Shown here in pieces: positions 5,857 through 39,402 of a stretch of DNA of 39,402 nt. The stretch is from Pseudomonadota bacterium (GTDB lineage: Bacteria; Pseudomonadota; Gammaproteobacteria; Burkholderiales; Burkholderiaceae_C): positions 1 to 39,402 of the forward strand of contig JAFEEB010000045.1 of the NCBI GenBank assembly GCA_018241325.1, read 5' to 3'. Both the position numbers and the translations under genes were made by a program. How positions within the stretch are numbered: the stretch's first letter is position 1; each line of letters starts with the position of its first letter. The notes under the pieces were generated by a model. It worked only from the letters and a program-made list of their open reading frames with translations. It was not told the origin of the DNA and ran no database searches.

Positions 5857-6549
5857 TCAGCCAGCGGGTTTGCGCGGACGCCCTCGCGGCGCGCGGGCCA
5901 CGCGCCGCTGGGTGCGCCGCTCCAGGTCGGCGACGAACGCATCGTCTCCCATGACCCAGGCGGTATGAACGCCGCGCGCCAACTCGGCCTGGCGCGGCGA
6001 GCCCAGGGCCGCTTCGACCAGCTCGCCATAGGCGCGCTCGCGCGCAAACGGGGTGTTGCCCAAGTCCCAGTACAGCGGATGGGGCGTGATCAGCGGGTCC
6101 ACGCGCAAACCCACCAGATGTCCATGGCCAGACCACGGGTAGTCGGCCGCGGTCGCCACCATGCCCGCGCGCACCGGGTTCAAGTCGATGTAGGCCATGC
6201 ACGCCAGCAGGTAGCGTTCGGCCTCGACCAGGGTGCTGCGGTAGCGCCCTTCCCACAGCGTGCCGCTGCGTCCATGGCGCCGATTGAATGCCCGCACGTA
6301 GGCGCGGCCCAGCGCCTGCATCATCTGCGGGATGCCGTCCGCGGTCTCCGGCGTGAGCAGCAAATGCAGGTGGTTGCTCATCAACACGTAGCTGTGAACG
6401 GCAACCTTGGCCAGAGCGGCCTGCTCACCGATGCCGTCCAGCAAACGCCTGCGATCAACATCGTCCAACGCCACGGCTTGCCGGTTGTTGCCCCGCAAAA
6501 TGACATGGTGCGGGTAGCCGGGGACGGTAAGACGGAGGGGACGGGCCAT
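5857..6549 (-). CDS. REP-associated tyrosine transposase (IS200/Y1-like, RAYT)
   Basis: A 230-aa protein of the Y1/HUH transposase superfamily, the REP-associated branch. These enzymes nick and join single-stranded DNA at REP-type hairpins through a tyrosine and an HUH metal site. The N-terminus MARPLRLTVPGYPHHVILRG is typical. The metal motif is NHLHLLL (His60, His62), and GRAYVRAFNRRHGRSGTLWEGRYR holds the candidate catalytic Tyr84. The C-terminus is basic (RGRPRKPAG). The start is ATG at 6549, which matches relatives; a TTG at 6555 would add two residues. The Shine-Dalgarno site is weak. The gene appears intact. The flanking inverted repeats are its likely substrate. Confidence 0.9.
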   Translation of the reverse strand: MARPLRLTVPGYPHHVILRGNNRQAVALDDVDRRRLLDGIGEQAALAKVAVHSYVLMSNHLHLLLTPETADGIPQMMQALGRAYVRAFNRRHGRSGTLWEGRYRSTLVEAERYLLACMAYIDLNPVRAGMVATAADYPWSGHGHLVGLRVDPLITPHPLYWDLGNTPFARERAYGELVEAALGSPRQAELARGVHTAWVMGDDAFVADLERRTQRRVARAPRGRPRKPAG

Positions 6550-6565
6550 GGTCAATTGTCATTCA

Positions 6566-6587
6566 AAATGTTGATCTGACCCCATTT
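6566..6587 (-). repeat. Right terminal repeat of RAYT element
   Basis: An exact inverse of 5737-5758. The following bases TTATTTTCC carry the stop codon of the adjacent phosphoesterase gene, which therefore ends inside the repeat. Confidence 0.85.
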
Positions 6588-8028: not shown

Positions 8029-8181
8029 TCGATGCCGTCCCGGTTTCTCGAATCAAAATCACTTCACATCGGCCAGCGGCTGCACATGGGCGTCGTCAAC
8101 GGCCACTTCAGCGTGCAAAAAGGGCTCTGGTATCCACGCCGCTCACCTCTTGATGGGCCAACACGTCATGACGCACCGTGG

Positions 8182-10644
8182 TCACGCGCCGATCCAGTCG
8201 GTCCAGGGATCGGTGCCGGACGGCAGGCGCTCCAGCAGCGCCTGCCCCAGGCTGAACCCGAGTTTGCGATAGCTCTCCCACTGCGCGTCGTCGAAAAACT
8301 GGTCGGCCGTGGACTGCTGCGGAAAATCCGGATGCGTGGCCTGGTATTGCACCAGGTCCAGGCTGGCGTGCTGGGTCAGGCGCGGCTTGACGAACACCAG
8401 GGTGCAGGTCGCCGCGGGCACGTCGCCCGCGGCCGGCAACGCGACGCGATAGCCGAGCAGGAACTGCTGGCCCTGACGCGCACCGCGCTCGAAGCCACCG
8501 GGATTGCCGAACAGGTCGACCAGCGCCGCAGGCGGCACCAGCGGCTCGAACACCGCGCCGAAGTCCACGCGCGCCAGCCGCATCAGGTTGGCGACATCGC
8601 CGAACCGGTAGTCGGGGTCGGCGCCGTTGTCCAGCGCCAGGATGAAACCCACGCGCCGGCGCAGCATTTCATACACCGCGGTGTTGTCGAAGTGCCCGCC
8701 GTCGGTCAGATACCAGAAGCGCTCGCCGGTGCCGAAGAACCGGCCGCGCAACTCGCGGTACAGGTGCAGTTGCGTTGCGAAGACCCAGGCACCGACGTCG
8801 CGCGCGCGCGTTGCGGCGGCCCGCCACCAATAGCCCAGGCGCATGTTCAGCAGCACCGCCAGCAGCGCCCGCTCGGGCGTGGTCCCGCGCCCAAGCCCCG
8901 GCGCGAACGCCGCACCCGAAATGCCGATCCAGCGGCCCAGCGACAGCCGCTCGAAGCCGCCAAGCCCCGCGTCGTCACGCGAACGCAGATGACCATCGAC
9001 CAGATACCCCTCAGGTGTCACCACCATCGGCAGGCCCTTGCGATCCTGATACACCAGCGCCTGTTCGGACACGACCGTGTCGTTGACGGTCACGTTGATC
9101 AGGTGCAGCGGCGCCAGCGAGTTCGGCCTGCCGTCCGACGCCCCGAAATACTGGTCGAGCGTCATGTCGTCGCGCGGATGCGCTTCGGTGATCGCGGCGC
9201 CGTGCGTGCTGTCGGCGCGCGCCGCGTTGCTGGCACCCAGGTAGGCGCGCACGATGCGCGCCGTGTAGAGGTTCTGCAATGTCGAGAGGTTCAGGAACTG
9301 GAAGGTCACGCCGGTGATCAGCCCCAGCAGCAGCAACCCGAGCAGGGCCGGCCAGGGCACGCGCCGCAGCTCGCCGCCGCCCAGCCAGACGGCGGCCACC
9401 CCCCACATCAGCAGCAGCCACAGCCCCAGCAGCAGCGCCAGCAGCACGGGCGCCACGCGCATCAGCGCGCGCCGTGCGCCGGCGTCCGGCGCCGGCGCGC
9501 CGCCCGACGACCAGAATTTTTGCAGGCTGAGCAGCACGGCGGCAAACGCCGCCACGCTGATGCCGCTGACACCCTGCCTCGACTCGATCCAGTGCAGCAC
9601 GGCGGTGGCCGCAACCAGCACCAGCGCGATCGCCAGCAACGACAGCGCGGCGCCCGTGGCGCGCGCCAGCCACTGCGTCAAGCGCGTGCGCGTCACCCGC
9701 ATCGTTTCGCGCGCACTGCCGTCCTCCGGTGCCAGCACGCCGCGGGTCCAGGCGATCGCGAACCACAGCCAGCCGAGCCAGGCCACCACGCCGGCCAGCA
9801 CCGCCCACATGGCCCAGCGCTGCCCCCAGCCGGCGCCGGCGATGACCGGCCCGGCGACAAACGCCAGGATCGACGAACGCGTCAGCAGCCCCGCACCCCA
9901 GCGCCCCCTGGCCGAGGCGCCCGCGCGCGTCGGCAGTTCGGTGCACCAGTAGCCGACCCCCAACGGCAGCACTGCCACCAGGGCCACCGCCAGCGCGAGC
10001 CAAAAATACAGCGCGCCGGCACCCCACGCGCCGGGCAATGCCGGCAGCCCCCCGGCGAGCGCCGGCGTCAGGGCCAGGTTGAGCACCGCCAGCAGCGCCA
10101 GCGGCAGCACCAGCGAGATGGCGATCACATAGTGCACGGCGATCACATTGCGCAGCCACAGCACGAGCATGAAGAAATAGTCGCCGCCGCCATTGGGGGC
10201 CAGATAGCGGCCGCTGTCGCGCAGCCATTCGATGGCGCGTGCTTCGCCCGCCCGCGCCGGGCCGATGGCGTCGGCGCGCTGCTCGACCGCGGCCAACTGA
10301 CGCAGGGCCTCGTCGCGCGCCGACATCATGTCGTCATCCGATGGCCTGGCCGTCGCCCCATCGCGCACCGACTTGGGCGTGAACAGGCTGCCCATGAAGC
10401 TGCCGGTATAGCCGCCGCCGGAAACCGTGGAGAGATAGTCGAAGCTCTCCAGACGCCCCCGGCGCGCCAGCGCCTGCAGCACGCCCAGCGAAATCGTCGC
10501 GCTGCGAATGCCGCCGCCCGACAAGGCCAGGCCGGCGCGCGGTGCGGCGGCCGGTTGCCCCAGAAGATCGCGCCGCCACCGCAGGCGCTCGGCTTCTGCG
10601 CCTTGCCAATCAGCGTCGTCGGGCGGGGGTCGGGGGCTTCGCAC
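8182..10644 (-). CDS. Patatin-like phospholipase with large transmembrane insert
   Basis: An 820-aa membrane protein with a split patatin fold. The N-terminal part has the oxyanion loop LSGGGIRSATISLG (residues 41-54) and the nucleophile Ser75 in STVSGGGYTGSF. The dyad aspartate is Asp648 in TDGGHFDNTAVYEML. Between them lie about seven or eight hydrophobic segments (roughly residues 150-460) predicted to cross the membrane. Patatins are serine acyl hydrolases that usually act on phospholipids. The start is GTG at 10644, with AGGAG spaced 6 bases upstream. It is followed 153 bp later by the Tat phosphoesterase on the same strand. Both could act on phospholipids, but co-transcription is not shown. 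Similar long membrane patatins occur in proteobacteria; their substrates are not settled as far as I know. Confidence 0.85.
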   Translation of the reverse strand: MRSPRPPPDDADWQGAEAERLRWRRDLLGQPAAAPRAGLALSGGGIRSATISLGVLQALARRGRLESFDYLSTVSGGGYTGSFMGSLFTPKSVRDGATARPSDDDMMSARDEALRQLAAVEQRADAIGPARAGEARAIEWLRDSGRYLAPNGGGDYFFMLVLWLRNVIAVHYVIAISLVLPLALLAVLNLALTPALAGGLPALPGAWGAGALYFWLALAVALVAVLPLGVGYWCTELPTRAGASARGRWGAGLLTRSSILAFVAGPVIAGAGWGQRWAMWAVLAGVVAWLGWLWFAIAWTRGVLAPEDGSARETMRVTRTRLTQWLARATGAALSLLAIALVLVAATAVLHWIESRQGVSGISVAAFAAVLLSLQKFWSSGGAPAPDAGARRALMRVAPVLLALLLGLWLLLMWGVAAVWLGGGELRRVPWPALLGLLLLGLITGVTFQFLNLSTLQNLYTARIVRAYLGASNAARADSTHGAAITEAHPRDDMTLDQYFGASDGRPNSLAPLHLINVTVNDTVVSEQALVYQDRKGLPMVVTPEGYLVDGHLRSRDDAGLGGFERLSLGRWIGISGAAFAPGLGRGTTPERALLAVLLNMRLGYWWRAAATRARDVGAWVFATQLHLYRELRGRFFGTGERFWYLTDGGHFDNTAVYEMLRRRVGFILALDNGADPDYRFGDVANLMRLARVDFGAVFEPLVPPAALVDLFGNPGGFERGARQGQQFLLGYRVALPAAGDVPAATCTLVFVKPRLTQHASLDLVQYQATHPDFPQQSTADQFFDDAQWESYRKLGFSLGQALLERLPSGTDPWTDWIGA

Positions 10645-17534: not shown

Positions 17535-17581
17535 AAATACCGGGCCGCCTTCGTCCGTTCGGGGACGACGCAAGAATAAGT

Positions 17582-17908
17582 GTGAAGCCCACCGATACGC
17601 CGGATTCTGTGCGCGCCGGTCGCCCGGTGCGTGACCGCCATCAATCTGGGCCGCCGGTCGCCCGGACGGCTCGGTGCCACCTACCCGCACACTCGGCGGG
17701 CCGCCTCATCGTGTGCCTACTTGGTGTTGCTGCGCGCAGAGATTGCCCGTTTCACCCGCACGGGTTGCCCCGCGCGACTCGTCTCTGTTGCTCTGATCCT
17801 CACCTCACGGTGGACAGCCGTTAGCTGCTGCGCTGCCCTGTGCAGTCCGGACGTTCCTCCAGCGCGCCCTTTCGGGCCTTGCGCCAGCGGCGGTCTGGCA
17901 GGCTTCAC
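17582..17908 (-). ncRNA. rnpB: RNase P RNA (type A)
   Basis: The catalytic RNA of RNase P, which trims tRNA 5' ends. On the minus strand the 5' end GTGAAGCC pairs exactly with GGCTTCAC at the 3' end (helix P1). Universally conserved segments are present: GAGGAACGTCCGGACTGC near the 5' side (P4 strand, plus coordinates about 17842-17860) and ACAGAATCCGGCGTATCGG near the 3' end (about 17591-17609). The length of about 327 nt is normal for a betaproteobacterial type A RNA. The ends are set by the P1 pairing, not by transcript data. A short membrane-protein gene lies 37 bp upstream on the same strand. Confidence 0.95.
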
Positions 17909-27106: not shown

Positions 27107-27273
27107 CACGTCGGGTTCGCTGCGCGGGCCCGACCTACGGGACTGCCGTTGGTGCCCGGTGTCGCCATTGCCTCCAGAAAAACCGTCGGATTCGCTGCGC
27201 GGATCCGACCTGCGCAGGCGTGGACGCCGTATCCGTGGCCGCAGGTCGGGTTGAGGAACGAAAACCCGACGTC
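27107..27273. repeat. Three copies of a GTCGGGTT...CCCGAC palindromic repeat
   Basis: Copy A is 27107-27140 (CGTCGGGTTCGCTGCGCGGG, then CCCGACCTACGG). Copy B is 27184-27214 (CGTCGGATTCGCTGCGCGGA, then TCCGACCTGCG). Copy C is 27241-27273, inverted (GCAGGTCGGGTTGAGGAACG, then AAAACCCGACGTC). Each can form a 6-8 bp hairpin. They fill the gap between the convergent LtrA and pyrC genes, and copy C runs into the pyrC stop codon. They may act as a shared terminator region. Confidence 0.75.
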
Positions 27274-28312
27274 AACGCACCAGCCGCCAGCCCAGCGGCT
27301 CGCCTCCCGCCAGCGGCTTGACCACCGCGTCGCCGAAGGGGTAGCTCTCGGGCGGCGTCCAGCTCTCGCGCTTGAGGGTGACGGTGCCCTGGTTGCGCGG
27401 CAGGCCGTAGAAGTCGGGGCCGTGATGACTGGCAAAGCCCTCCAGCCGGTCCAGCGCGCCGGCGGCCTCGAAGGCGCTGGCGTACAGCTCCAGCGCGGCG
27501 TGCGCGGTGTAGCAGCCGGCGCAGCCGCTGGCGTGCTCCTTGAGCTGCGCGGGGTGCGGGGCGCTGTCGGTGCCCAGAAAGAACTTGGCCGATCCGCTGG
27601 TGGCCGCCTGCACCAGCGCCTGGCGGTGCTGCTCGCGCTTGAGCACGGGCAGGCAGTAGTAGTGCGGACGGATGCCGCCGCGAAAGATGGCGTTGCGGTT
27701 GTACAGCAGGTGGTGCGCGGTGATGGTGGCGGCCAGGTGCGCGCCCGCGTCCTGCACGTACTGCGCCGCTTCCTTGGTCGTGATGTGCTCGAACACGATC
27801 TTCAGCTCGGGGAAGTCCTTGCGCAGCGGGCTCAGGACGCGGTCGATGAAGACGGCCTCGCGGTCGAACAGGTCGATCTCGGGGTCGGTCACTTCGCCAT
27901 GCACCAGCAGCAAAAGGCCGGCGCGCTGCATGGCCTCCAGCGTTGCGTAGGTCTTGCGCACGTCGGTCACGCCGGCATCGCTGTTGGTGGTGGCGCCCGC
28001 CGGGTACAGCTTGAGGGCGACCACGCCGGCATCCACCGCGCGCGCGATCTCATCGGGCGGCGTGTTGTCGGTCAGGTACAGGGTCATCAAAGGTTCGAAG
28101 GCCACGCCGGCCGGCACCGCCGCCCGGATGCGCGCCTTGTAGGCCAGCGCCTGCGCGGCCGTGGTCACGGGCGGACGCAGGTTGGGCATGATGATGGCGC
28201 GCGCGAACTGCGCGGCCGTGTGCGGCACCACGGCCGCCAGCGCGGCGCCGTCGCGCACGTGCAGGTGCCAGTCGTCGGGGCGGGTGAGGGTGAGGGTCGA
28301 ATCGCTCGGCAT
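27272..28312 (-). CDS. pyrC: Dihydroorotase
   Basis: A 346-aa class II dihydroorotase (E. coli PyrC size) that interconverts carbamoyl-aspartate and dihydroorotate in pyrimidine synthesis. The zinc-binding start [10 protein letters not shown] (His16, His18) is followed by [10 protein letters not shown], then by the carboxylated-lysine region [23 protein letters not shown] and FEHITTKEA supply the two further histidines, and GTDSAPHP supplies the catalytic aspartate. The start is ATG at 28312. Earlier in-frame codons up to 28363 lack protein character. It is preceded by an interspersed repeat and by the end of the multicopper-oxidase operon 132 bp upstream on the same strand. Confidence 0.96.
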
Positions 28313-28353
28313 GGCGCGATTCTCGCACCTTGCCCGGCGCCGCCGCTGGCGCC

Positions 28354-28420
28354 GGAATTTCAAGTCAAATCGACCGGGAGTCGGCGCAGATCAAGCGCAG
28401 GCAGCTATATTAACAATAGC
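28354..28420 (-). repeat. Interspersed AGCTGC-TGCGCTT repeat between operon end and pyrC
   Basis: On the minus strand it reads AATATAGCTGCCTGCGCTTG, then ATCTGCGCCGACTCCCGGTC, then GATTTGACTTGAAATT. It is aligned with the copy at 24811-24880, including the distal ATTTGNCTTGAA block. It lies 25 bp past the stop codon of the 488-aa gene and 42 bp before the pyrC start, so it is in the pyrC leader region. Confidence 0.7.
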
Positions 28421-28444: not shown

Positions 28445-29911
28445 TCAATTGGGCGCATCACAGGCGCGCGCGGGGCCGGCGCCGACGGGTTGCGAATCCG
28501 GGTGGCCCGACTCCGGAAACGGCGCCAGCCGCACCAGGTTTTGCACGCCCGCGGCGCTCTCGAAGGTGCCGCCGCCCTTGGCCAGAAAGCAGAAGTTCTC
28601 CAAGGGCATCGGCGGCTGGTGGCCCGGGTCGCCAAAGCGCGTGGCCTCGGGGCCGATGTATTCGCCGATGGGCGCGACGTACAGGCCCGAGGTCAGGCCG
28701 TTGGCGAGCTTGGCGTTCGGGCTGCCGATCACGCGCGCCTGGAGGTCGCGGCGCACGGCGCGGGCGTTGTCCTTGGCCGGCCAGGTGTTGCGAAAGCGCC
28801 CCAGCTGCGGGCCGTTGGACGGCTGCAGGCCGGCCGGGCCGGTGAGCGTGGTGCCGGTCTCGTTGCGGCCCGAATCGATCAGCCGCACCTCGACCGGGCG
28901 CGAAGGGTCGGTGGAAAAGCCGACGATGCGCACGCGCGAGGTTTCCTCCTGCTGCAAGGTGGGGAAGACCTCGCCCAGCGTGCCCATCAGCGCCTCTTCG
29001 ATGTACAGGTACACCGGCTCGGCGCCGGGCGAGGTGTAGATGCCCAGCTCGGCCTCCAGCCCGTGCGCGGCGACGATGAAGCCGCCCGCCCCGTCGGACT
29101 GCAACATGCCGACGTAGACGACGTGGTCACCCACGCGCAGCGGCGCGGGCAGCCGCGCATCGCAACCGGGCAGCGCGGGCGCCAGTGGCTCGGCCGCGAC
29201 GGCGCCGCAGGTGAAGCGCTTGTCGGCGGGCGCCGCGGGCCGGTTGTTGGCCGGGCATTTGGCGTCGCCCGCGGTGCGCGCAATGCACACCGGAAAGCCG
29301 GTGCGCGCATGCACGGGCGAGTTGTCGGGGTCGAGCTGAAAGCGCTGATCCAGCGCCAGCGCGGCCTTGGCGCCCGCGCTGTTGGCCTGGCCGTAAATGC
29401 CCTCGGGGTCGTTCAGGCGCACGCGCGCGCCGGTCGCGGCGCCCGGCGCGCCCACGCGCAACTCGCCGCGCGCGCCGTCGATCGCCTGGATCACGCCGTT
29501 GCCCACATGCAGCGCGCCCTGGCTGATGCGCGCCACGCCGGCGATGTACTGGCCGCCGACGATGTTGCCCTGCAGCTCGGCCTCGAAGGCGACGCGCGGC
29601 GGCGATGCATCGGCCAGCGCCAGGCCGCTGGCGTTCTGCACGGTGCTGCCGCCCTGCGGGCCGCGGAACAGGTCCTGCGCCGTCATGTACTGGCCCGGCA
29701 TGGTGATCAGCAGGCTGCGCGGCAGCGTCACCGGGATGCCGCGCACCGTCATCGTCGCGGCGCTGAGCGGGTCGCCCGGCGCGGTGAGCGCAAAGCGCTC
29801 GATGTGGCCGATCAGATTGAACGACGGGTTGGGCGTTTGCGCCAGCGCGATGCCGGCGGCAAGGGCGAGCGCGGCGCTGCACGCGATCCGGATGGCGGGC
29901 TTCGGTGTCAT
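28445..29911 (-). CDS. Secreted protein of unknown function, last gene of the multicopper oxidase operon
   Basis: A 488-aa exported protein of no family I recognise. A signal peptide is clear (MTPKPAIRIACSAALALAAG, cleavage probably after ALA at residue 25). The mature part is rich in beta-type sequence and small domains: MTVRGIPVTLPRSLLITMPGQ, GARGELRVGAPGAATGARVRLNDPEG and DHVVYVGMLQSDGAGG look like repeated OB- or beta-barrel-like strands. Scattered cysteines (in GFPVCIA, DAKCPAN, RFTCGAV, PGCDAR, NFCFLAKGGG, RACDAPN) suggest disulfides. The start is ATG at 29911 with a strong AAGGAGGT 4 bases upstream that overlaps the stop of the preceding cytochrome fusion gene, so the two are translationally linked. 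Role unknown; export fits the rest of the operon. Confidence 0.8.
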   Translation of the reverse strand: MTPKPAIRIACSAALALAAGIALAQTPNPSFNLIGHIERFALTAPGDPLSAATMTVRGIPVTLPRSLLITMPGQYMTAQDLFRGPQGGSTVQNASGLALADASPPRVAFEAELQGNIVGGQYIAGVARISQGALHVGNGVIQAIDGARGELRVGAPGAATGARVRLNDPEGIYGQANSAGAKAALALDQRFQLDPDNSPVHARTGFPVCIARTAGDAKCPANNRPAAPADKRFTCGAVAAEPLAPALPGCDARLPAPLRVGDHVVYVGMLQSDGAGGFIVAAHGLEAELGIYTSPGAEPVYLYIEEALMGTLGEVFPTLQQEETSRVRIVGFSTDPSRPVEVRLIDSGRNETGTTLTGPAGLQPSNGPQLGRFRNTWPAKDNARAVRRDLQARVIGSPNAKLANGLTSGLYVAPIGEYIGPEATRFGDPGHQPPMPLENFCFLAKGGGTFESAAGVQNLVRLAPFPESGHPDSQPVGAGPARACDAPN

Positions 29912-29912
29912 G

Positions 29913-31325
29913 TCAACCTCCTTGGCGAAATGCGGATGGCGCGGCATCGGCGGAAACACCCAGCGGCACGAGCAGCGGCGAGAAGCCGTGGCGCCGCTGG
30001 CGGCCGTAGTGCACCAGCAGGCCGGGGGACAGCTCTTGCTCGGGCATGCGATCCAGGGCGTCGAGCAGCGCGCGCTCGTACAGCGCGCGGCCGGCGCGGC
30101 TGAGCAGCTCGGTCGTCAGGCGGGCGGCGGCCAGCCCCAGGCGGTACCAGGGTGTGGCCGCACGCTCACCGGCCGGGGCGGGCTCCAGCACGGCGGCGGG
30201 CATGGGCAGCACCAGCGTCTGCGTCCAGCCCGCGGGCAGCGCGGCCTGCACCGCCGGCGCGCGGGCCAGCGTGTAGCCGATGCAACCGGCTTGCTCCTGG
30301 CGCAGCGCCGCGCGCACATCGGACTGCGGCGCGAGCCAGCGCACTTGCGTACCCGCCGAGGCCGATGCCGTCGCGCCATCGCCGTGCGCCACCGCCACGC
30401 GCGCGCCGGCGGGGCACGACGCCAGCGCCCGCACCAACGCGTCGCGCTGCAGCGCCACGGGCGCCAGCAGGTCGGCCGACCAGTCGGCGGCGCGCGGGGA
30501 CTGCTCGCGCACCACCAGCGTGGCGATGTGCGACAGGTGGGCCTGCGCGAGCAGTGCGTCGGCGCCCTCCTGCGCCTCGTTCCACAGGCCGCCGACCAGC
30601 GCAAACACGGGCTCGTCCTGCCAGGCGGCCAGCGCCTGGCGCACGCCGGCCCGCGCGTCCTGCACTTGCAGGTCGATGCGCCGGCCGTGCACGCCGCCGC
30701 GCGCGTTGACCTCGGCAAAGCCGGCGCGCAGCCCGGCGACGAGGGCCGCGCCCGTGGCCGCGGCCGGCCCGCCCAGCGGCACCACGCTGCCCAGGCGGAT
30801 CGCGCCATCGGTCACGCCGGGCGGCCGGTCCTGCTCGGTGCCCACCCGGTGCAGATAGGCCAGCAGCGCCTGGGCCTCGCCTGGCTGCAGCGCATAGCGC
30901 GGCATGGCGGGCGCCAGCGCGGCGCCGCCGCGCCCCTGACCCTGGGTGACGGCGCGCAGCACGGCGGCGTCGTCGGCCAAGGCGGGGCGGCCCTCGCGCG
31001 GCTGGCGCAGCGCGGCGGCGCGCAGCGGCGGCACGGGCTGCCCCCCTTCGCGCCCGCCGGCGCCGGTGGCGCCATGGCAGCGCGCGCAGGCGGCCATGGC
31101 CACCGGCAGGCGCAGCGCCGTCACGCCGCTGCCACGCGCAAAGGCCGCGTGGCCCTGGTAGAGCGCGCGGCCGCGCGCCGCCAGCGCGGCATCGTCGTCG
31201 GCGGCAACGACGGGGCCGGGCACGACCAGCGCCGACAGCAACACAAACGCCAGCCCGGTCACTGGATGGCCCTTCGCGCTGCGCGCTGCGGGCTTCGCGC
31301 TTGGGAGCGACCTGGCATGTCTCAT
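29913..31325 (-). CDS. Cytochrome c - periplasmic binding protein fusion
   Basis: A 470-aa exported protein with two unrelated domains. After a signal segment (GLAFVLLSALVVPGPVVAAD, residues 24-43) comes a class I cytochrome c domain. Its haem motif is CARCH at residues 80-84, and the candidate axial methionine is in PAMPRYALQPGEAQALLAYL. From about residue 165 a type 1 periplasmic binding fold starts: IRLGSVVPLGGPAAATGAAL, then FAEVNARGGVHGRRIDLQVQD, the classic opening of branched-chain amino acid and amide binding proteins (Peripla_BP_6). No ABC permease or ATPase gene is near. The start at ATG 31325 overlaps the SCO stop as ATGA. Electron transfer by the haem is expected; the ligand of the binding domain is unknown. 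Confidence 0.88.
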   Translation of the reverse strand: MRHARSLPSAKPAARSAKGHPVTGLAFVLLSALVVPGPVVAADDDAALAARGRALYQGHAAFARGSGVTALRLPVAMAACARCHGATGAGGREGGQPVPPLRAAALRQPREGRPALADDAAVLRAVTQGQGRGGAALAPAMPRYALQPGEAQALLAYLHRVGTEQDRPPGVTDGAIRLGSVVPLGGPAAATGAALVAGLRAGFAEVNARGGVHGRRIDLQVQDARAGVRQALAAWQDEPVFALVGGLWNEAQEGADALLAQAHLSHIATLVVREQSPRAADWSADLLAPVALQRDALVRALASCPAGARVAVAHGDGATASASAGTQVRWLAPQSDVRAALRQEQAGCIGYTLARAPAVQAALPAGWTQTLVLPMPAAVLEPAPAGERAATPWYRLGLAAARLTTELLSRAGRALYERALLDALDRMPEQELSPGLLVHYGRQRRHGFSPLLVPLGVSADAAPSAFRQGG

Positions 31326-31888
31326 GCAGCCACCCCGCGCAGCAGATCGAGCAGCTTGTCCGTGGGCGTGAGGGATGACGCGCGCGTCCAACGGCCGCGC
31401 GCCGAGCCCAGCCACAGCAGCGACGAGTGGGCCTCGGGGTCGCCCACGGGCACGCCGAAGGCCGTCCACACGCGGCGCAGCTCGGCCGCATCGCCGGTCA
31501 GCATCAGCCAGCCGGCGTCCAGGCCCAGGCGCAGCTTGAAGCGCCGGGCATAGGCGCGGATCGCCTCGGGCGGATCGCCCAGGGGATCGACCGTGATCGA
31601 CAGCAGGCGCGCGCGGGGCGCGCCGCGGGGCGCCGCATCGAGCCGCTCGCGCAGCGCGCGCAGCATCGCCGTCTGCGGCGGGCACACGGTGGAGCAGCCG
31701 GTGTAAAAAAAGCCGACCACCACCGGCGGCTCGCACAGCGCGCGCAGCCGGTGCGCACCGCCTGCCTGGTCGAGCAGACGGGCGTCGGGCAGCGCCACGC
31801 GGCCGCTGGCGTCCTGCGCGCGGGCCGGCGCCGCCCAGCCCGCGGCGCAGGCCGAGCCCAGCGCGGCGATGGCCTCGCGCCGTCTCAT
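31322..31888 (-). CDS. SCO1/SenC family protein (copper/thiol chaperone)
   Basis: A 188-aa SCO family protein. These periplasmic thioredoxin-fold proteins bind copper through CxxxC and a distant histidine, and help assemble copper sites or act as thiol reductases. All three ligands are seen: Cys65 and Cys69 in YTGCSTVCPPQ, and His154 in EAHSSLLWLG. ITVDPLGDPPEAIRAYA is typical. The N-terminal MRRREAIAALGSACAAG resembles a Tat or Sec signal, with a double arginine but no full consensus. It starts and ends in ATGA overlaps with its neighbours, so it is tightly coupled in the operon and is the probable copper loader of the multicopper oxidase. Confidence 0.93.
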   Translation of the reverse strand: MRRREAIAALGSACAAGWAAPARAQDASGRVALPDARLLDQAGGAHRLRALCEPPVVVGFFYTGCSTVCPPQTAMLRALRERLDAAPRGAPRARLLSITVDPLGDPPEAIRAYARRFKLRLGLDAGWLMLTGDAAELRRVWTAFGVPVGDPEAHSSLLWLGSARGRWTRASSLTPTDKLLDLLRGVAA

Positions 31889-33819
31889 GGCCGGAGCTCC
31901 GGCGCGTCCGGCCCGCCCTGCACGCGCCCGCGCACGAAAGGCAGGTCGCGCGAGACGCTGCCCACGAACATGTCGTAGGCCACGCCCCGCGGCACGCTGA
32001 CCTCGGCCGCGTAACGCCCGGCCGCATCGCCGGCGGGGCCCAGCTCGCCCAGGTGCACGCGGCGCTGCCAGCCGCTGCGCTTGTCGAACATCAGCAGCGT
32101 CAGGTCGCCCACGCGCGTCAGCGGCTGGCTGCGCCCGCCCGGTGGCTGCTCGCTGAGCGCCACCACGATGCGCCGCTGCGTGTCGGCCAGCGGCTTGTCC
32201 TCCACCAGCCGCGCCTTCAGCTCGGGCGCCGCGTCGCGCTCGGCCTGCCCGGCCGTCAGGGGCAGGGCCACGCGGTCGCAGCCGACGAAGCGCGGCCCGG
32301 CGCCACTGACGATCAGGTGGTGCGCGCCGCCGGTGTCATAGCGCACCGGCACCTGGTAGCGGCCCGGCGCCAGCTCGCGCGGCGCCAGCTCCAGCAACGC
32401 TATGGCCAGCGGCGTGCGCTTGTAGTTGGAGTAGCTGCCGACCGGCGCCATCATGCCCTCGGCGTACTGGTAGATCAGCCGGTCGGCTGCATTGGCCACC
32501 AGCAGGCCGGCGCCGTCGGGCGCGGCGATGGCGCGGCGCAGGCTGGCGCCGTCCTCGCGCGGCACGCCGGCGCTGCCCAGCAGGATGCGCGCCGGCTGCA
32601 CGCGGGCGGCGCGCAAATCGGCCAGCGCCCACAGATCGGCGTTGGCCTCGTCGCCGCCCACGGCATAGACGAAGCGCTGCGTCACCGCCAGCCGCCGCGC
32701 GCCGGGCACGGTGGCCGAGCCCGCGTGCACCGTGCCGGAGGCCAGGTCCACCATGCTCATGCGATCGCCGCCCAGGGCCACGGCGTAGCGGCCCTCGTCC
32801 ACGATCGCCAGGTCGGCCACAGGGTGCCCCAGCGCCAGGCGCCGCACCGCGCTGCCGTCGAGGTCGATGGCCAGCAGCGCCTGGCCGTCGTGCGCCACCA
32901 GCCGCCGCGCCAGCGCGCTGAACGCCAGGCGCTGCGCCGGCTGCGGCAGGCTCCAGCTGCGCTGCACCTGGGGCACAGCGGCGGCGGCGTCGGCGCTCCA
33001 GCGCAGCAGGCGCGCGTCGGCATGGGTGCTCAGCACGGCCGCGCCGTCGGGCGTGTCCACGGACTGGATGGCCAGCACCTTGGGCGCGGGCGCGCCGCGC
33101 CAGACGGGCTCGCGCGCCGCCAGGTCGAGCACCGCCACCCGGCCTGTGGCCGGCAGCGCGACCCACGCGCGCGCGACGCGCTCATCCAGCGCCAGCGTGG
33201 CATCGGCACCGTCGCCGGGCAGCTCGAGGGTGCGCACGATCTGGCGGCGGTGCGTGTCCACCGCCACCAGCCGCGCCGGCGCGCCGCCCACCAGCACCCA
33301 CAACTCGCCGTGCGATGGGGCGTGCGCCCAGGCCAGGGGCGCGCCCGGCAGCGTGACGATGGACTCCAGCTTGGCGTTGTTCAGTCCCACGAAGGGGTTG
33401 ATGAAGGCCAGCGTGCGGTCGGCGTTGAGGCTGAGGATGCGCCAGGTGTTGAGGTCGATGTCGGCGCGGCGGCCGACCCCGGTGGACACCAGCGACTTCA
33501 CGCGGTCCTTGCATGCCAGCTCGCCTTCGGCCAGCGTGGGGCGCTGGCGCTGCAGCCACACCGCCAGCTGGCCGGGCGCGTAGCGCAGGGGGTTGCCCGA
33601 GGCTTCGTCGCTGATCTCGAACGTCAGCTGGCCCAGTCCATCATTGGCATGGTTGCTATTTTTTTCATAGTTCCAGCGCAGTTGCACGCCGGCGTCACGG
33701 ATCGTGCCGCGGGCGCCGTCGGCGCGTGCCCCCGCGCCGCCCCACACCATGAGGCACAGCGCCGGCGCGAGCGCCAGGCCCGCCAGCCGGCGCAGGGACG
33801 AGGCAAGGCGGCGGCGCAT
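31885..33819 (-). CDS. Exported beta-propeller-like protein, unknown role
   Basis: A 644-aa protein with a signal peptide (MRRRLASSLRRLAGLALAPA, then LCLMVWGGAGARA). After an N-terminal domain (IRDAGVQLRWNYEKNSNHAND, then LTFEISDEASGNPLRYAPGQ) comes a series of blades of about 40 residues: GELWVLVGGAPARLVAVDTH, ARAWVALPATGRVAVLDLAA, RRLVAHDGQALLAIDLDGSA and GRYAVALGGDRMSMVDLASG. This suits a YncE/cytochrome-d1-type seven-bladed propeller, but no metal or haem motif was found in it. The C-terminal 150 residues look like an Ig-like domain with MFDKRSGWQRRVHLGELGP. The start is ATG at 33819, with AAGGA about 7 bases upstream, 11 bp after the preceding stop. It is probably a periplasmic scaffold or binding partner of the oxidase. 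Confidence 0.82.
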   Translation of the reverse strand: MRRRLASSLRRLAGLALAPALCLMVWGGAGARADGARGTIRDAGVQLRWNYEKNSNHANDGLGQLTFEISDEASGNPLRYAPGQLAVWLQRQRPTLAEGELACKDRVKSLVSTGVGRRADIDLNTWRILSLNADRTLAFINPFVGLNNAKLESIVTLPGAPLAWAHAPSHGELWVLVGGAPARLVAVDTHRRQIVRTLELPGDGADATLALDERVARAWVALPATGRVAVLDLAAREPVWRGAPAPKVLAIQSVDTPDGAAVLSTHADARLLRWSADAAAAVPQVQRSWSLPQPAQRLAFSALARRLVAHDGQALLAIDLDGSAVRRLALGHPVADLAIVDEGRYAVALGGDRMSMVDLASGTVHAGSATVPGARRLAVTQRFVYAVGGDEANADLWALADLRAARVQPARILLGSAGVPREDGASLRRAIAAPDGAGLLVANAADRLIYQYAEGMMAPVGSYSNYKRTPLAIALLELAPRELAPGRYQVPVRYDTGGAHHLIVSGAGPRFVGCDRVALPLTAGQAERDAAPELKARLVEDKPLADTQRRIVVALSEQPPGGRSQPLTRVGDLTLLMFDKRSGWQRRVHLGELGPAGDAAGRYAAEVSVPRGVAYDMFVGSVSRDLPFVRGRVQGGPDAPELRP

Positions 33820-33830
33820 GGGGCGGTCCT

Positions 33831-34454
33831 TCAGCGCTCCACCGTCAGCTCGGACAGCGCAAGCTTGTCGTAGCGGCGGTTGCCCAGCAGCGAGGCATCG
33901 AAGCGCACCTCGACGATGCGGTCGCCGCCGGTGGCGCGCGCGCCGACGAAGGGCGCGGAGAGCGGCGTGGCGCACGCGCAGACGTGGCCCGTGCGGCCGT
34001 CGGCGTTGACCACCATCTGCCAGCTGTTCGGATCGGACGCGAGCGCGATCCACATGGCGGCAAACAGCGGCTGGTCGAAGAACGGTGCATCGAACGGGTC
34101 GCGCGGACACACGCCCACCCAGGCGCCGACGGCGCGCACGCCGGTGGAAAACTTCAGCCGAATCGGCGCCAGCAGCACGTCGCTGTCCGGACTGGGGTCG
34201 GCGGCCACGAGGATGGCGTCGCCCAGCCAGAAGTTGCAGTCGAAGTCGGTGTCCGAGCAGTCGCGCCGCCGTACGCGGGGGCCGGTCTCGTTGACCGTGA
34301 TCTGCACCGTGTCGTCGAGCTGGTAGCGCCACGGCACGCCCGACACGAAGGCATTGGGCGCCACGAAAGCCTGCGTGAACGGGTCCACCTCGTCCCAGCG
34401 TTTTTCGATGCCGGCCGCGAAGAGCGCCGGCGATGGCAGTTGCACGATGGCCAT
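33831..34454 (-). CDS. Unknown 207-aa protein following the multicopper oxidase
   Basis: Not recognised. The start is ATG at 34454, with AAGGAG 9 bases upstream and 13 bp after the oxidase stop codon. The N-terminus (MAIVQLPSPALFAAGIEKRW) shows no signal peptide, unlike the other operon products. Sequence character is mostly beta. It has five cysteines in three groups (DCSDTDFDCNFW, VGVCPRDPF, HVCACATPL) and many aspartates, so it could bind metal, but no known motif is complete. The trailing RRYDKLALSELTVER ends the protein 11 bp before the propeller gene. Because it sits second in a copper-enzyme operon, a role as accessory or maturation factor is possible; this is inference. Confidence 0.75.
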   Translation of the reverse strand: MAIVQLPSPALFAAGIEKRWDEVDPFTQAFVAPNAFVSGVPWRYQLDDTVQITVNETGPRVRRRDCSDTDFDCNFWLGDAILVAADPSPDSDVLLAPIRLKFSTGVRAVGAWVGVCPRDPFDAPFFDQPLFAAMWIALASDPNSWQMVVNADGRTGHVCACATPLSAPFVGARATGGDRIVEVRFDASLLGNRRYDKLALSELTVER

Positions 34455-34467
34455 GATCGATGCTCCT

Positions 34468-37400
34468 TCATTGGGCCGGGTTGTTCGCCGGTGCGCTGGG
34501 CGGCGCCTGGACCCGCAGCAGGCCCCACAGGCCGCCATCGCGCAGGAAGCTGGCCTGGCTGCCCACCAGGTAGTCGTGCGGCACGCGCGAGGCGCCGCCG
34601 GCGGCCACCTCCAGGCTCACGCCCATCATCGGGCCGAAGCCGTTGAACACGCCCTCGCGCAACGCCGCTCCGGCGTTCGCGTCGATGCGGCGCGAATCGG
34701 GCGACCACGGATACGGGTTGAAGGCGTGGCCGCTGAGCGCCACGCCCTGCTGGCGCGTGTGGCCGCCGGCGTGCACGAAGTGCAGGCGCACGCGCTCGCC
34801 GGGGCGCGCCGTCAAGACGGGCGTCTCCGGGTCGCAGGGGTTGGCGAAGGCCAGGATCGGCGCGATGCCGGCCGCGCAGCGCACGCTGCCGTCGGGCGCG
34901 CGGGTGGCGGCCGAGCTGAACACCTGGCTGTAGTCGCTCTCGTTGCGCTCGGTGAAGCCCACGCTCGGGTCGCCCCCGCGGCGCGCCCACAGCGGCTCGG
35001 TGCGGTAGTTCCAGGCCTTCATGCCGTAGTCGTCGGGCTCCTCGGCGCCCGACAGCTTGCGCACCGGCAGGTCGCCTTGCAGGGCATGCACGGCGTCCTG
35101 GAACAGCAGCACGTGATCGACATAGCGGCGCGCGGGCTGGCCGCCGCGGGCGGGCACGCAGATTTCGGCGCTCAGCGCCGTGCCGCCAAAGCGGTTGCCG
35201 GTGCAAACATCCGAGCCCTGCGGACCGATGACCAGGGCACCGATCAAGCCGTGCATGGGGTGCTTGACGGCGTCGCCGAAGCTGCGCACCGGCAGCGCGC
35301 CGAACTCGATCGGCTGGCGCTCGGGCCCGGGCTCCAGCGTGCTGAGCAGGAAGGCGCGCTGGCAGCGCTGCAGAGCCGGACCGCTGGCGCCCGGCGCGCA
35401 CGGCGGGATCAGGCTGCCCTGCATGCCCGACGAGGCCTGCTGGCGCGCGCGTTCGCCCTCGCCGCGCGAGAGGCCCGCGGCCAGCGCCAGCGCCCCGTTC
35501 AAGCCGACGTTGCTGCCGTCGCCGTAGAGCGGGTTTTGCGACAGCCGCGGCACCGAAAACCCCACGCTGCTGGACATGCGGAACTGGTTGAGGTTGAAGC
35601 CGTCCGTGATCATGGGCAGCGCGTCGTGCGTGGCCGCGCGCTCGGGCAGCGACTGGCCGGGTGCGGCCGCGGGGCCGTCGGCCAGCATGGGCGGCAGCAG
35701 GTTGCGCACGAAGACCTGCAGGCATTCGCCGGCCGCGGCGCGCATCACCATCGGCTCGATCGGCTGGCCGGCGGCGTAGCGCGGGCGCAGCTCGGCCATG
35801 GCCTGCGCGGCGCTGCGGTTGCTGGCCTCACTTTCCAGCAAGCTGCATGCCGCCGGCGCGTTGTCATCGGCCTCGCAGCGCTGGCTGCGGTGCAGGGCGT
35901 AGACGATGGCCTGCGGATCGCGGATGCGCTGGCGCTGGCTGTAGGTGATGCCGGCCGACTGCGCGCTGCCGCAGTCACCGGCCAGCTGGCAGGCCTGCGC
36001 CACCGTCACCTCGAAAAAGCGCCGGGGCGCGTCTTGGCCGCCGGGCAGCTTGCACACCTGCTCGCGCACGTCGCCCTGCGGAATGGCCGGTGGCTCCAGG
36101 GCCGCCAGCGCCGCCAGGGCGGGCTGCAGCGTCACGGCGCGGCCCCGCGCGGTCGCGCTCTGGCGTGCCGACGCGGCGTCGCTGGTATAGACCACGGACG
36201 CTGCGCGCGCGGCCACCGACGGCGGCCGGTAGCTGCGCAGCACGCCCCACAGTCCGTCCCACAGTTGATCGACCGAGGAGCCGAAGTACAGGTAGTCCGC
36301 CGCCGGCAGGCCCGCCGGGTTGACCAGCAGGTCGAACTCGAAATGCTCCGAAATGCCGATGGGCTGCGCGTTGGTGTAGCCCGAGCCTTTGGAGCTGGGC
36401 AGGCGGTGCCACTTCACGCCGTTCATGGTGAACACGTGCTGCGCCTCCTGCGCGCCCTGGATCAGCCGGATCTGCACCGGGTCGCCCTCGAACGCCGGCA
36501 GGATGGGCGTGGCCGGGTCGCCGAACTCGCGCCAGGGCTCCCGGTTGACGATGTTGGTGCGGCAGCCCGCGCCCGCCATCAAGTCCTTGCGGTACAGCTG
36601 GCAATTGAAGTCGCGGCGCCATTGCTCGACATCCTTGAGCACGGCATTGAGCCGCGCCTCCTGGCCCAGCGAGCGCAGCAGCTCGCGGGTGGCGCGGCTG
36701 GCGTGCGCCGGCTGGGCCTCTTTGGCCAGGCGCTCGGCGCGCGCGGCATGCACCTCGGTGCTGAAGGCATTGGCCATGTCGCCCAGGCAATCCTGGTCGC
36801 CATCGCCCGGGCTGCAGGGCTGCGAGCTGAAGGCGCGCCGGCGGCTCTGGCGGTAGCTGAAGCCGCCCAGCGCCGCCTGCGGATCGCTGGCCGAGTCGGT
36901 GGGATCGGCCGCGCTGCTGTCGGCGATGCGCAGCGCCAGCGGCTCGTGGCGGTAGTTGACGTACTGGCTGCCCGGGTCTTCGCTGGAGATGCCCAGCGGC
37001 CGCGCCGGCAGCAGGGCGACGTGGCGCTGGCCGAAGCGGATCTCGGTATGGTCGCGCATCAGGCTGTCCTCGCCGCGCGGCTCGGGGTTGATGGGCTCCA
37101 GCGCCGTGTTGTAGGCGATGCCGAAGTCGGCGATCGCCAGCGCGAACTCGCGCCGCGTCTGGTCGTTGGCCCCGCACGCCGTCGTGGGCACGGGGCCGGC
37201 GCGCTTGCCCGAATCGGGCTGCAGGCCGCTCGAGTCGCTGTCGCCGGCGCAGCGCGGCGCAATGATGTTGGCCATCGTGGCGGTCGGGCCGCCGTCGGTG
37301 CGCAGCACCAGCGCGTCGCGCGGCTCGATCACGCCGAGCACCGGGTCCCTGGCGCGCAGGCGGCTCTCGGGCACCCGGGCGGCCAGGTTGGCGCCGCCGA

Positions 37401-39402
37401 TCAGCTTGGAGCACAGCGCCGAGTTCGGCGCCGCGTCGCAGCCCAGGTGGCCCGACCCGGCCATGGCGGCGCCGGCTTGCTGCATGTCGCTGGCCTGCAC
37501 GGTGGCATCCACGCGTGTCCACACCGAATTGGCCGGCTCGATCACCAGGCCCGCGTACAGGCCGTGCTGCTGGTGCGAGCTGGGGCCGAAGTGGTCGTGG
37601 CTGAACACGGTGCGCAAGGTGTTGTCCTTGCCCTTCTGGTTGATGATGGGGTCGGCCCACCACAGCTGCGTGGTGCGCTGCGCGCCGCAGAACGGATGAT
37701 CGGCGTGCAGGCGGTGTTCGTACTGCGCATCCGCTTCGCCCGGCTTGCGGGCCGGACAAAGGCCCTTGTCCAGCAAGCGCTGGTAGCCCGCGGCGCCGCC
37801 GCCAGAGCTGGCGCTGAAGATGTCGCCACCGGGCCGGAACAGCGGGTGGACCTTGGGCGCCAGCCTTTGCCCCCGGCCGGTGGCGGCCACGCGCCGGTTG
37901 TTGGCGAAGATGCGCTCGCGCACCTCGTCGGGCGAGAAGGTGCCGTCCTCGTAGTTCCAGCCGTTGCCCGAGCCGTCGCTGGAGGTGACGTCGAACTTCA
38001 CCAGATGGATGTGCTGGCCGATGGTGTCGGTGGGCGTGAAGACCTGGAAGTCGTCGGCGTTGAGCGCCGAGGGGATGAAGTTGCTGGCCCGGTAGTCGAT
38101 GCAGTCGCCCGAATTGGCGCGGAAGAACAGCGGCTCGGGCAGGCGGGTGCGCGTGGCCGGGTCGATGATGTCCTTGACATCGTTCTCCAGCACGGCGATG
38201 CGGCCCTGCGGGTCGAACCAGCCGTGCTTGTTGTAGGTGAGTTCGGTCTGGATGTAGGCCGCGCGGTAGTGGCGCCGCGGCGCGTTGGCCGGGCAGGGGT
38301 TGGCGTAGGGCGCGCCGGCAGCCGGCGGGCGGCCGTTGACGCGAAACACCGTGTGCTCGTTGCCGCGCGGCTGCTGGGTGCCGACGGTGGCGGCGTAGTC
38401 GGTCTGGTAGCCGCTGCCCTGCGGCGACCAGTCGGGGTGCGGCGGCGCGCCCGCCGTCGGCACCAGGCCGCCCGCGTTCAAGGTGCCCGCATGAAAGCGC
38501 ATCGCCGCTTTCTCGGTCGCGGTGCCCGAATGCGGCAGCGGCTTGATTTCGATCTGGTCCCAGATGGCGGCAAAGGCGTTGAGCGCAATCGGGTCCTGCT
38601 TGGCCACGCGCTGGGCGATCAGCCGCGCGGCCTCGCCGCCCGTGGCCAAAACATGCTCGCGCGCGGCCGGGTCGTCGCGCGCGGCCTTCAGCGTGCCGCC
38701 AACCACGACGTGGCGCGGCAGCCCGCCGTTAACCACGTCGGCTGCGCTGGGCTCGACCCCCGAGGCGGCGTCATAGCCCGCGGCGGCGACGTCCATGTCC
38801 AGCGGCGGCTGCGGCGGCCGATGGCCGGCCTGGCCCGGGATGTAGAACGGGTAGCCGGCAAACGCGGCCGTGGGCAGCGGCGCCAGTGCGGCGCCCGGGA
38901 TGGGCACGATGGCGGGCGCCTCGGTGCCACCCGCCACCTCGGCGTCGGGCAGGCGGCGCCAGCGCGGGTCGTTGGCCGGGCCGGCCGGTTGGTCGGGCCT
39001 GAACAGGCCCTTGTCGTTGCCGTCCTCGAACACGTCATGCACGCGCCACAGCTCCCACATGCCTTGCGCAAAGTGCGGGTAGAGGTGGCAGTGAAAGATC
39101 GAGTCGCCCGGCGTGAAGTTGCGGTTGCCCGAGCCGCCGAACTCGATGCCGTAGCTGAAGGTGGCGCCGGGCGAGATGGTCTGCGAGTCGAGATAGGTCG
39201 AGTCCGGGTCGCTCGCGTCCAGCACCCACTGGTGCGCGTGCAGGTGGAACACATGCGTTTCCTTCGGCCCCGCGTGCAGGTTGCGGAAGCGCACGGCGTC
39301 GCCCAGGTAGCTGTGGTGCACGTTGGACGGGTCGTCCTTGTAGCGCGCGCCGATCGGCGGCCGCTCTGGCTTGTCCTGGTCCCACTGCAGCACCAGCGCC
39401 GG
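34468..39402 (-). CDS. mofA: Giant multicopper oxidase, MofA-like (N-terminus off the right edge)
   Basis: At least 1644 residues remain, and the frame runs open through the window end. Multicopper oxidases take electrons from a substrate at a type 1 copper and reduce O2 at a trinuclear site. The type 1/type 3 motifs come first: H-x2-H-x-H in THVFHLHAHQW (39226-39255) and HCHLYPHFAQGM (39058-39093), which fits HCH-x3-H-x4-M exactly. HIH (38005-38013) and HDHFGPSSHQQHGL (37564-37599), the likely HxH pairs, come later. Further cupredoxin-like segments are WDGLWGVLRSYRPP and KHPMHGLIGALVIGP. Size and gene company resemble MofA of Leptothrix, a putative Mn(II) oxidase of similar length. Other large oxidases cannot be excluded, so the symbol is tentative. 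It is the first visible gene of a six-gene operon. Confidence 0.85.
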   Translation of the reverse strand, partial: PALVLQWDQDKPERPPIGARYKDDPSNVHHSYLGDAVRFRNLHAGPKETHVFHLHAHQWVLDASDPDSTYLDSQTISPGATFSYGIEFGGSGNRNFTPGDSIFHCHLYPHFAQGMWELWRVHDVFEDGNDKGLFRPDQPAGPANDPRWRRLPDAEVAGGTEAPAIVPIPGAALAPLPTAAFAGYPFYIPGQAGHRPPQPPLDMDVAAAGYDAASGVEPSAADVVNGGLPRHVVVGGTLKAARDDPAAREHVLATGGEAARLIAQRVAKQDPIALNAFAAIWDQIEIKPLPHSGTATEKAAMRFHAGTLNAGGLVPTAGAPPHPDWSPQGSGYQTDYAATVGTQQPRGNEHTVFRVNGRPPAAGAPYANPCPANAPRRHYRAAYIQTELTYNKHGWFDPQGRIAVLENDVKDIIDPATRTRLPEPLFFRANSGDCIDYRASNFIPSALNADDFQVFTPTDTIGQHIHLVKFDVTSSDGSGNGWNYEDGTFSPDEVRERIFANNRRVAATGRGQRLAPKVHPLFRPGGDIFSASSGGGAAGYQRLLDKGLCPARKPGEADAQYEHRLHADHPFCGAQRTTQLWWADPIINQKGKDNTLRTVFSHDHFGPSSHQQHGLYAGLVIEPANSVWTRVDATVQASDMQQAGAAMAGSGHLGCDAAPNSALCSKLIGGANLAARVPESRLRARDPVLGVIEPRDALVLRTDGGPTATMANIIAPRCAGDSDSSGLQPDSGKRAGPVPTTACGANDQTRREFALAIADFGIAYNTALEPINPEPRGEDSLMRDHTEIRFGQRHVALLPARPLGISSEDPGSQYVNYRHEPLALRIADSSAADPTDSASDPQAALGGFSYRQSRRRAFSSQPCSPGDGDQDCLGDMANAFSTEVHAARAERLAKEAQPAHASRATRELLRSLGQEARLNAVLKDVEQWRRDFNCQLYRKDLMAGAGCRTNIVNREPWREFGDPATPILPAFEGDPVQIRLIQGAQEAQHVFTMNGVKWHRLPSSKGSGYTNAQPIGISEHFEFDLLVNPAGLPAADYLYFGSSVDQLWDGLWGVLRSYRPPSVAARAASVVYTSDAASARQSATARGRAVTLQPALAALAALEPPAIPQGDVREQVCKLPGGQDAPRRFFEVTVAQACQLAGDCGSAQSAGITYSQRQRIRDPQAIVYALHRSQRCEADDNAPAACSLLESEASNRSAAQAMAELRPRYAAGQPIEPMVMRAAAGECLQVFVRNLLPPMLADGPAAAPGQSLPERAATHDALPMITDGFNLNQFRMSSSVGFSVPRLSQNPLYGDGSNVGLNGALALAAGLSRGEGERARQQASSGMQGSLIPPCAPGASGPALQRCQRAFLLSTLEPGPERQPIEFGALPVRSFGDAVKHPMHGLIGALVIGPQGSDVCTGNRFGGTALSAEICVPARGGQPARRYVDHVLLFQDAVHALQGDLPVRKLSGAEEPDDYGMKAWNYRTEPLWARRGGDPSVGFTERNESDYSQVFSSAATRAPDGSVRCAAGIAPILAFANPCDPETPVLTARPGERVRLHFVHAGGHTRQQGVALSGHAFNPYPWSPDSRRIDANAGAALREGVFNGFGPMMGVSLEVAAGGASRVPHDYLVGSQASFLRDGGLWGLLRVQAPPSAPANNPAQ

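Follow-up and report, generated by a model that had tools for sequence, protein, structure and literature searches.

Does the six-gene locus headed by a giant multicopper oxidase in this Burkholderiaceae_C genome represent one of the described systems, mnxG or mof, or a further operon type with its own set of genes? The DNA analysed here, hereafter the window, is the whole 39,402-nucleotide contig C39 of a 3.82-Mb genome in 93 contigs. Six genes on its minus strand occupy positions 28445-39402:

39402-34468, minus strand: MCO, the giant multicopper oxidase, 1644 aa, open at the contig end
34454-33831, minus strand: B207, 207 aa
33819-31885, minus strand: PROP, propeller-like protein, 644 aa
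31888-31322, minus strand: SCO, 188 aa
31325-29913, minus strand: CYC-PBP, cytochrome c-binding-protein fusion, 470 aa
29911-28445, minus strand: SEC488, 488 aa

The junctions between these genes measure, in order, 13, 11, -4, -4, and 1 bp, and this tight spacing makes it very likely that all six form one transcription unit with a single transcript. The initial annotation had described a six-gene operon, almost certainly with one transcript, two ATGA overlaps and a ribosome site over a stop codon, and the window agrees on each point: all six genes are present and closely spaced on the minus strand, both -4 bp junctions are ATGA overlaps, and an AAGGA ahead of PROP overlaps the B207 stop (ctgAAGGA). 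An AAGGAGG ahead of SEC488 lies just 5′ of the CYC-PBP stop. The operon is followed directly, on its own strand, by an amidohydrolase-family gene (27272-28363; dihydroorotase-like by eye), and the downstream DNA of two related loci (L002 and G018, see below) differs from this flank. Elsewhere the window holds a bacterial RNase P class A RNA (17580-17906, minus strand; RF00010, 183.8 bits) and a gene that by eye resembles a REP-associated tyrosine transposase (5857-6555).

The oxidase gene is split over contigs C39 and C50. A search of the same genome with the NCBI MnxG profile placed its N-terminal part at positions 13-1257 of C50, minus strand, and the two contigs are neighbours, since the last 24 bases of the window are exactly the first 24 of C50. 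The length of 1644 aa or more given in the initial annotation was right about the open end; the full oxidase now comes to ≈2,090 aa, by arithmetic from the Met before the signal-peptide-like start on C50, with the gene itself left unjoined. The orthologous oxidase in L002, a Burkholderiales metagenome-assembled genome, has up to 2,123 aa. All four copper motifs of the multicopper oxidase superfamily (HxH, HxH, HxxHxH, and HCHxxxHxxxxM) are found in the window fragment:

39238-39255, minus strand: copper motif C, HVFHLH
39058-39093, minus strand: copper motif D, HCHLYPHFAQGM
38002-38019, minus strand: copper motif A, GQHIHL
37564-37605, minus strand: copper motif B, FSHDHFGPSSHQQH

The twelve residues of these motifs are invariant in 15/15 aligned giant oxidases, the one from a Priestia plasmid included. 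Of the 18 window-type loci described below, 16 have the complete set of four motifs; L011 is without motifs C and D because its sequence has a gap, and L094 is without all four because only the C-terminal part is present. The best solved-structure match of the oxidase is MnxG (9bxa, E 2.1e-89), and against the NCBIfam MnxG profile NF041487 the window copy, which is without its N-terminal part, scores 586 bits. Both matches uphold the earlier placement in the giant MnxG/MofA superfamily, and the truncated protein stays below the cut-off of 3100 bits for an MnxG equivalog. This cut-off was passed in none of 369 class-level genomes, the window genome included. A lipobox is clear in some relatives, atypical in the window copy and absent in others, which is only suggestive of a lipoprotein.

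Upstream of the oxidase on C50 no regulator was recognised by eye. Three C50 frames gave no Pfam match, a null result that means little because these frames were probably not the real genes. A sigma-54-type promoter of the oxidase was considered and dropped, since the pattern is absent upstream of the oxidase on C50 and occurs only once each in L010 and L029 among nine other loci.

Pfam recognised the families expected for three of the genes (Cu-oxidase_2, SCO1/SenC, and cytochrome c with Peripla_BP_6) and gave none for B207, PROP and SEC488. The SCO1/SenC match (PF02630) reaches 56.5 bits against a threshold of 22.8, and CYC-PBP, with its cytochrome c and Peripla_BP_6 domains, is a mofC-like fusion. 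The SCO and haem c partners named in the initial annotation are thus confirmed, and each carries its metal-binding motif:

31682-31696, minus strand: CSTVC, CxxxC copper site of SCO
31074-31088, minus strand: CARCH, haem motif of CYC-PBP

The CxxxC site is found in all 17 window-type loci that have SCO. In CYC-PBP the haem motif is followed by a later MPRY, whose Met is likely the axial haem ligand; CxxCH and the later Met-Pro are invariant in 14/14 aligned fusions, including five from the mnxG side. PROP has a signal-peptide-like start, and its profile matches the propeller protein of the mnxG-type locus L083 (E 5e-88), which itself matches YNCE-like propeller and Cytochrom_D1 models. The earlier description of an exported, propeller-like protein therefore holds by homology to the propellers of mnxG-type operons and by the signal-like start, while a direct Pfam match is absent. 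Two neighbouring mofC-like cytochrome c-periplasmic-binding-protein fusions were also seen in genome G251 (L133, 14771-16357 and 18337-19989), with a sigma-54 response regulator and a histidine kinase nearby and no giant oxidase within the fetched 34 kb.

B207 had been labelled a cysteine protein, a description that we reject, since the aligned members have no conserved cysteine. By eye these members also show no hydrophobic start or signal peptide. The AlphaFold model (mean pLDDT 90) is an all-beta sandwich, with best fold matches to adhesin, carbohydrate-binding and Stig-cyclase domains, of which one has E < 0.001 and all have low TM-scores. In the plasmid collection the only B207 match was Roseomonas gilardii.

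SEC488 has a signal-peptide-like start (by eye). Compared with the window, the Mesorhizobium locus has 67% identity in SEC488 and 60% in the oxidase but 39–43% in the other four proteins, and for Nitrospira UBC2 the corresponding values are 48%, 48% and 30–40%. SEC488 is thus about as conserved as the oxidase, which suggests that the two might be direct partners. The contrast is weaker in Diaphorobacter, where SCO (45%) equals SEC488 (46%), and absent in L002, where B207 and SCO are as conserved as SEC488. A fold search with the SEC488 model, which is of moderate quality (mean pLDDT 67), gave no match at E 0.001. DUF5666 was rejected as a relative, since none of 14 SEC488 members matches any Pfam family at E up to 10.

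SEC488 matches were found in 3 of 300 order-level genomes (the window genome, G050, and a weak partial match in G037) and in 4 of 72,556 plasmid records, one from Roseomonas and three from Paraburkholderia. The Paraburkholderia largidicola megaplasmid AP028202.1 (L144, 4219-16413) encodes two SEC488-like proteins fused to PKD domains. As in the window, the SEC488-like domains adjoin multicopper oxidase, SCO and cytochrome genes, here an SCO-cytochrome c fusion and a MauG-like dihaem protein. The cluster differs in its 732-aa CueO-like oxidase, which falls below the cut-off of the CueO family, in the PKD fusions and in the adjoining type II secretion pseudopilins; a DUF5666 protein is present as well. 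It is possibly a separate extracellular redox system. The strongest hint at the role of SEC488 comes from this second occurrence beside genes for a copper oxidase and cytochromes.

Further loci of the window type were identified by a scan of named genomes with six DNA-pattern peptides, which misses others, so that the 14 loci found are a lower bound. These at least 14 loci come from Mesorhizobium, Ancylobacter, Paracraurococcus, Rhizobium, Methylocystis, Roseicella, Siccirubricoccus, Rhizobiales, Diaphorobacter, Nitrosomonas, the Burkholderiales genome L002 and three Nitrospira, and the carriers include Rhizobium sp. Root483D2, Ancylobacter crimeensis, Mesorhizobium liriopis, Diaphorobacter caeni and Methylocystis suflitae. 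Together with the window, G050 (L029), G018 (L094) and a Roseomonas gilardii plasmid (L057) they make up 18 loci of the window type; G025 was excluded because its contig, at 67,908 bp as long as that of L002, is apparently identical with it. Profile searches showed that the order oxidase, B207, PROP, SCO, CYC-PBP, SEC488 is kept in 17 of the 18, spanning Alphaproteobacteria, Burkholderiales and Nitrospira. The expectation that the neighbours would be conserved with the oxidase in other genomes is therefore borne out. The partner profiles were built from the window-type loci themselves, and strong partner scores are partly by construction for that reason; B207 in L008, L014 and L029 scores only about 1e-15, yet stands in the expected position.

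Only L012 (Nitrospira RSF1) departs from the common order: its oxidase ends early with no N in the sequence, and no partner follows. In L013 (Siccirubricoccus G192) the oxidase is split into several frames, and L094 (G018) has only the C-terminal part of the oxidase with one TGA inside. The incomplete copies in L012, L013 and L094 may reflect either decay or assembly error. In L011 a run of 100 N interrupts the sequence immediately ahead of the oxidase fragment. Of the three Nitrospira loci, UBC2 (L010) alone is complete. Two of the carrier loci belong to Nitrospira records whose titles contain 'RSF', which we take to stand for rapid sand filter; a scaffold gap interrupts one of them, and the other is without partners. 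In L002 a COX15/CtaA gene and a second SCO gene lie upstream of the operon (5528-8255), and the operon looks as though it had been added to the end of a gene cluster for cytochrome oxidase assembly.

We propose that these loci are a third operon type of giant MnxG/MofA-superfamily oxidases, beside mnxG and mof, which would serve extracytoplasmic metal oxidation, most likely of Mn(II) (probability roughly 0.62). The observations behind this proposal are gene content and order, the separate clade of the oxidase (see below), the intact copper, haem and SCO motifs and the co-occurrence of the genes. The oxidase, which would be exported by its signal-like start, would oxidise a low-valent metal outside the cytoplasm, with electrons presumably entering at the type 1 copper and leaving to O2 at the trinuclear copper centre. 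SCO would deliver the copper, and CYC-PBP and PROP may be extracytoplasmic partners for electron transfer or assembly. SEC488 might be an obligate extracytoplasmic partner of the oxidase, while B207, having no signal peptide, may help on the cytoplasmic side or leave the cell with a partner.

Several observations speak against Mn(II) oxidation by a third operon type. For none of the carrier strains did we find a phenotype; the oxidase (a truncated copy) lies far below the MnxG equivalog cut-off, and an oxidase that passes electrons to O2 needs no cytochrome c. The two G251 fusions stand within 34 kb without a giant oxidase, the conservation contrast of SEC488 is uneven (Diaphorobacter, L002), and L012 and L013 are broken. 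In addition, OmpB, described as a relative, is required for Fe(III) reduction (PMC5566968).

The operon could instead oxidise another substrate, such as Fe(II), Cu(I), a phenolic or a nitrogen compound, with Mn being incidental. We consider this possible, if on the unlikely side. The copper motifs do not set the substrate, and the carriers are ecologically mixed, comprising rhizobia, a methanotroph, nitrifiers and relatives of Roseomonas. Homologs of Mn-oxidising multicopper oxidases are also found in Sphaerotilus, itself not known to oxidise Mn, according to a paper that covers the distribution of these oxidases in Leptothrix and Sphaerotilus (PMC13386937). Mesorhizobium australicum T-G1 does oxidise Mn, and the authors credit a laccase-like multicopper oxidase and superoxide (PMC4505141). 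Against another substrate stands that the closest relatives whose function is known, the MnxG proteins of Bacillus and P. putida, have been described as oxidising Mn, and that the operon partners match those of the mnxG operon. Sand-filter Nitrospira are moreover suspected Mn oxidisers (PMC12070406), and the two carrier records titled 'RSF', both incomplete, point the same way.

How close, then, is the Mn(II)-oxidising third type that we propose to the mnxG operon? In P. putida GB-1, where mnxG is one of three Mn oxidase genes, the operon comprises mnxG, a YVTN beta-propeller, two SCO1/SenC genes, an ABC-binding protein with a cytochrome c domain, and SurA (PMC11409713, Table 4); the available part of a promoter paper on P. 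putida (PMC11930936) holds nothing on operon partners. Propeller, SCO and fusion had been regarded in the initial annotation as a richer set; that it is unusually rich is not supported, since this set is that of the published GB-1 operon, and the literature also describes mofA/ompB clusters that include mofC-like and SCO genes (PMC5566968, PMC8218464). In both operons the giant oxidase comes first and is followed by a beta-propeller, SCO and the cytochrome c-ABC-binding-protein fusion. The window-type operons differ in having one SCO, located between PROP and the fusion with no second copy inside the operon, no SurA/PpiC-type folding protein, B207 after the oxidase, and SEC488 at the end.

The same differences are seen in the mnxG-side loci of our set. 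L083, L084, L087, L088 and L138 each contain PROP, two SCO, CYC-PBP and SurA in varying order, and L089 and L090 contain PROP, two SCO and CYC-PBP with SurA not detected, while L082 is cut by a contig end within PROP. B207 and SEC488 are absent from all eight, where SEC488 could be judged on seven as L082 is too short. They are also absent from eight more distant oxidase loci (L058, L085, L086, L091, L092, L095, L096 and L097), two of which, L086 and L092, are short or partial. Since L083, L088 and L138 served as seeds of the SurA profile, L084 and L087 are its independent detections; none of the 18 window-type loci gave a match to it.

In a tree of 31 oxidases, made by a quick method from rows with strong composition differences and without L013, L094 and L138, the 16 window-type rows fall on one side of a branch with SH-aLRT support of 100. 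Five mnxG-type rows likewise stand on one side of a branch with support of 100, with the ungrouped L089, L090 and L092 inside. These rows were recognised by their NF041487 score (L082, L083, L084) or by operon content (L087, L088), and P. putida MnxG itself is not in the tree. The window oxidase does not group with them, and the L002 oxidase is 35–37% identical to two aligned mnxG-type oxidases as compared with 53–63% to seven members of its own clade. In contrast to MnxG, the window-type oxidase thus stands in a clade apart and scores below the MnxG cut-off. If the operon were simply a diverged P. putida-type one that works in the same way, this would account for the shared oxidase, propeller, SCO and cytochrome c-binding protein, but such a reading is unlikely given the separate clade, the low identity of L002, B207 and SEC488 in 17 of 18 window-type against none of the mnxG-side loci, and the missing SurA and second SCO.

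Outside these two groups, Bacillus MnxG (9bxa, 1227 aa) and the oxidase of the Priestia megaterium plasmid locus L097, taken for MnxG by its length, share the superfamily and all copper-motif residues with the window oxidase. They differ in size, L097 having 1228 aa as compared with about 2,090 aa for the window oxidase. The 17.6-kb Priestia locus showed neither an SCO gene nor a cytochrome fusion, and its propeller-lactonase gene is found some 4.7 kb downstream.

A MofA operon in the strict sense, as the initial annotation had proposed, is improbable, since none of the six proteins has a mofB-like peptidyl-prolyl isomerase domain at E 0.1 (Pfam, NCBIfam), and the oxidase has about 2,090 aa versus roughly 1,660 aa for MofA of Leptothrix discophora. 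The mof operon, described with its relatives in A210 and FeOB, shares with the window the giant oxidase and the mofC-like fusion, and in Rubrivivax A210 also a copper metallochaperone (PMC8218464, PMC5566968); mofA clusters with mofC-like and SCO genes would fit such an assignment. By gene content the window-type operon differs from mof in having no mofB and in having the propeller, B207 and SEC488. Searches for relatives of mofC found mnxG-type operons (G422, G183, G1156), window-type ones and the two G251 fusions, and among them no recognisable mof operon.

That the system works in reverse or as an electron conduit, as proposed for Geobacter OmpB in mineral reduction or attachment, is highly unlikely, because the complete four-motif copper centre is conserved and the named carriers belong largely to groups known as aerobes. 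The ompB cluster of Geobacter sulfurreducens does resemble the window by description, with a multicopper oxidase, a mofC-like cytochrome and an SCO1/SenC gene, and it differs in that OmpB is linked to Fe(III) reduction (PMC5566968). Since OmpB is needed for that reduction, the substrate and even the direction can differ inside the superfamily.

The distribution of the proposed third operon type is patchy, its carriers being soil and water bacteria that include some nitrifiers. Only 2 of 28 other genomes of the genus have matches, any match was found in 14 of 399 order-level genomes (the window genome included, most being mnxG-type, partial or short), and a profile search at E 1e-10 found 3 of 398 phylum-level genomes. 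Between the window and L002, which we take to be of the same genus, DNA identity is 85–88% over a stretch that begins shortly within the oxidase and ends with the final base of SEC488, and the 24.9-kb L002 locus has no other match to the window or C50 at E 1e-20. The unit therefore sits in different surroundings in the two genomes; G018 has in common with L002, and not with the window, a stretch of downstream flank. The operon has a GC content of 73.8%, as against 68.9% for the remainder of the window and 66.3% for C50. This contrast and the different surroundings fit a transfer as a cassette, though they are not proof of one.

The list of known bacterial Mn oxidases is short, and the proteins that work with them are poorly understood. 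The distinct and coherent oxidase clade with its two co-conserved partners, B207 and SEC488, seems to be new. A literature search recognised no description of B207, SEC488 or the window-type operon in the texts it covered, which mostly excluded subscription papers, and so does not show their absence from print. The finding is a well-bounded six-gene unit with two new co-occurring partners, and because its carriers include named strains with genomes in hand, the substrate and the roles of the partners are directly testable.

Tentatively, SEC488 and B207 might be markers of a third bacterial system for Mn(II) oxidation that is conserved independently, a cassette moved among Alphaproteobacteria, Burkholderiales and Nitrospira with SEC488 as an obligate structural partner to the oxidase, and this might be the gene set behind Mn removal by sand-filter nitrifiers. 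We hold this larger idea to be rather doubtful, its odds being lowered because both Nitrospira copies named for sand filters are incomplete in their assemblies. An 'MnxG' has been reported for sand-filter Nitrospira, and the cause of Mn removal there was left open (PMC12070406); the window-type oxidase is a candidate for it, with UBC2 as the one complete copy of three in Nitrospira. If true, the operon would provide the genes for a process in drinking-water sand filters, the removal of Mn by nitrifiers, that has yet to be explained.
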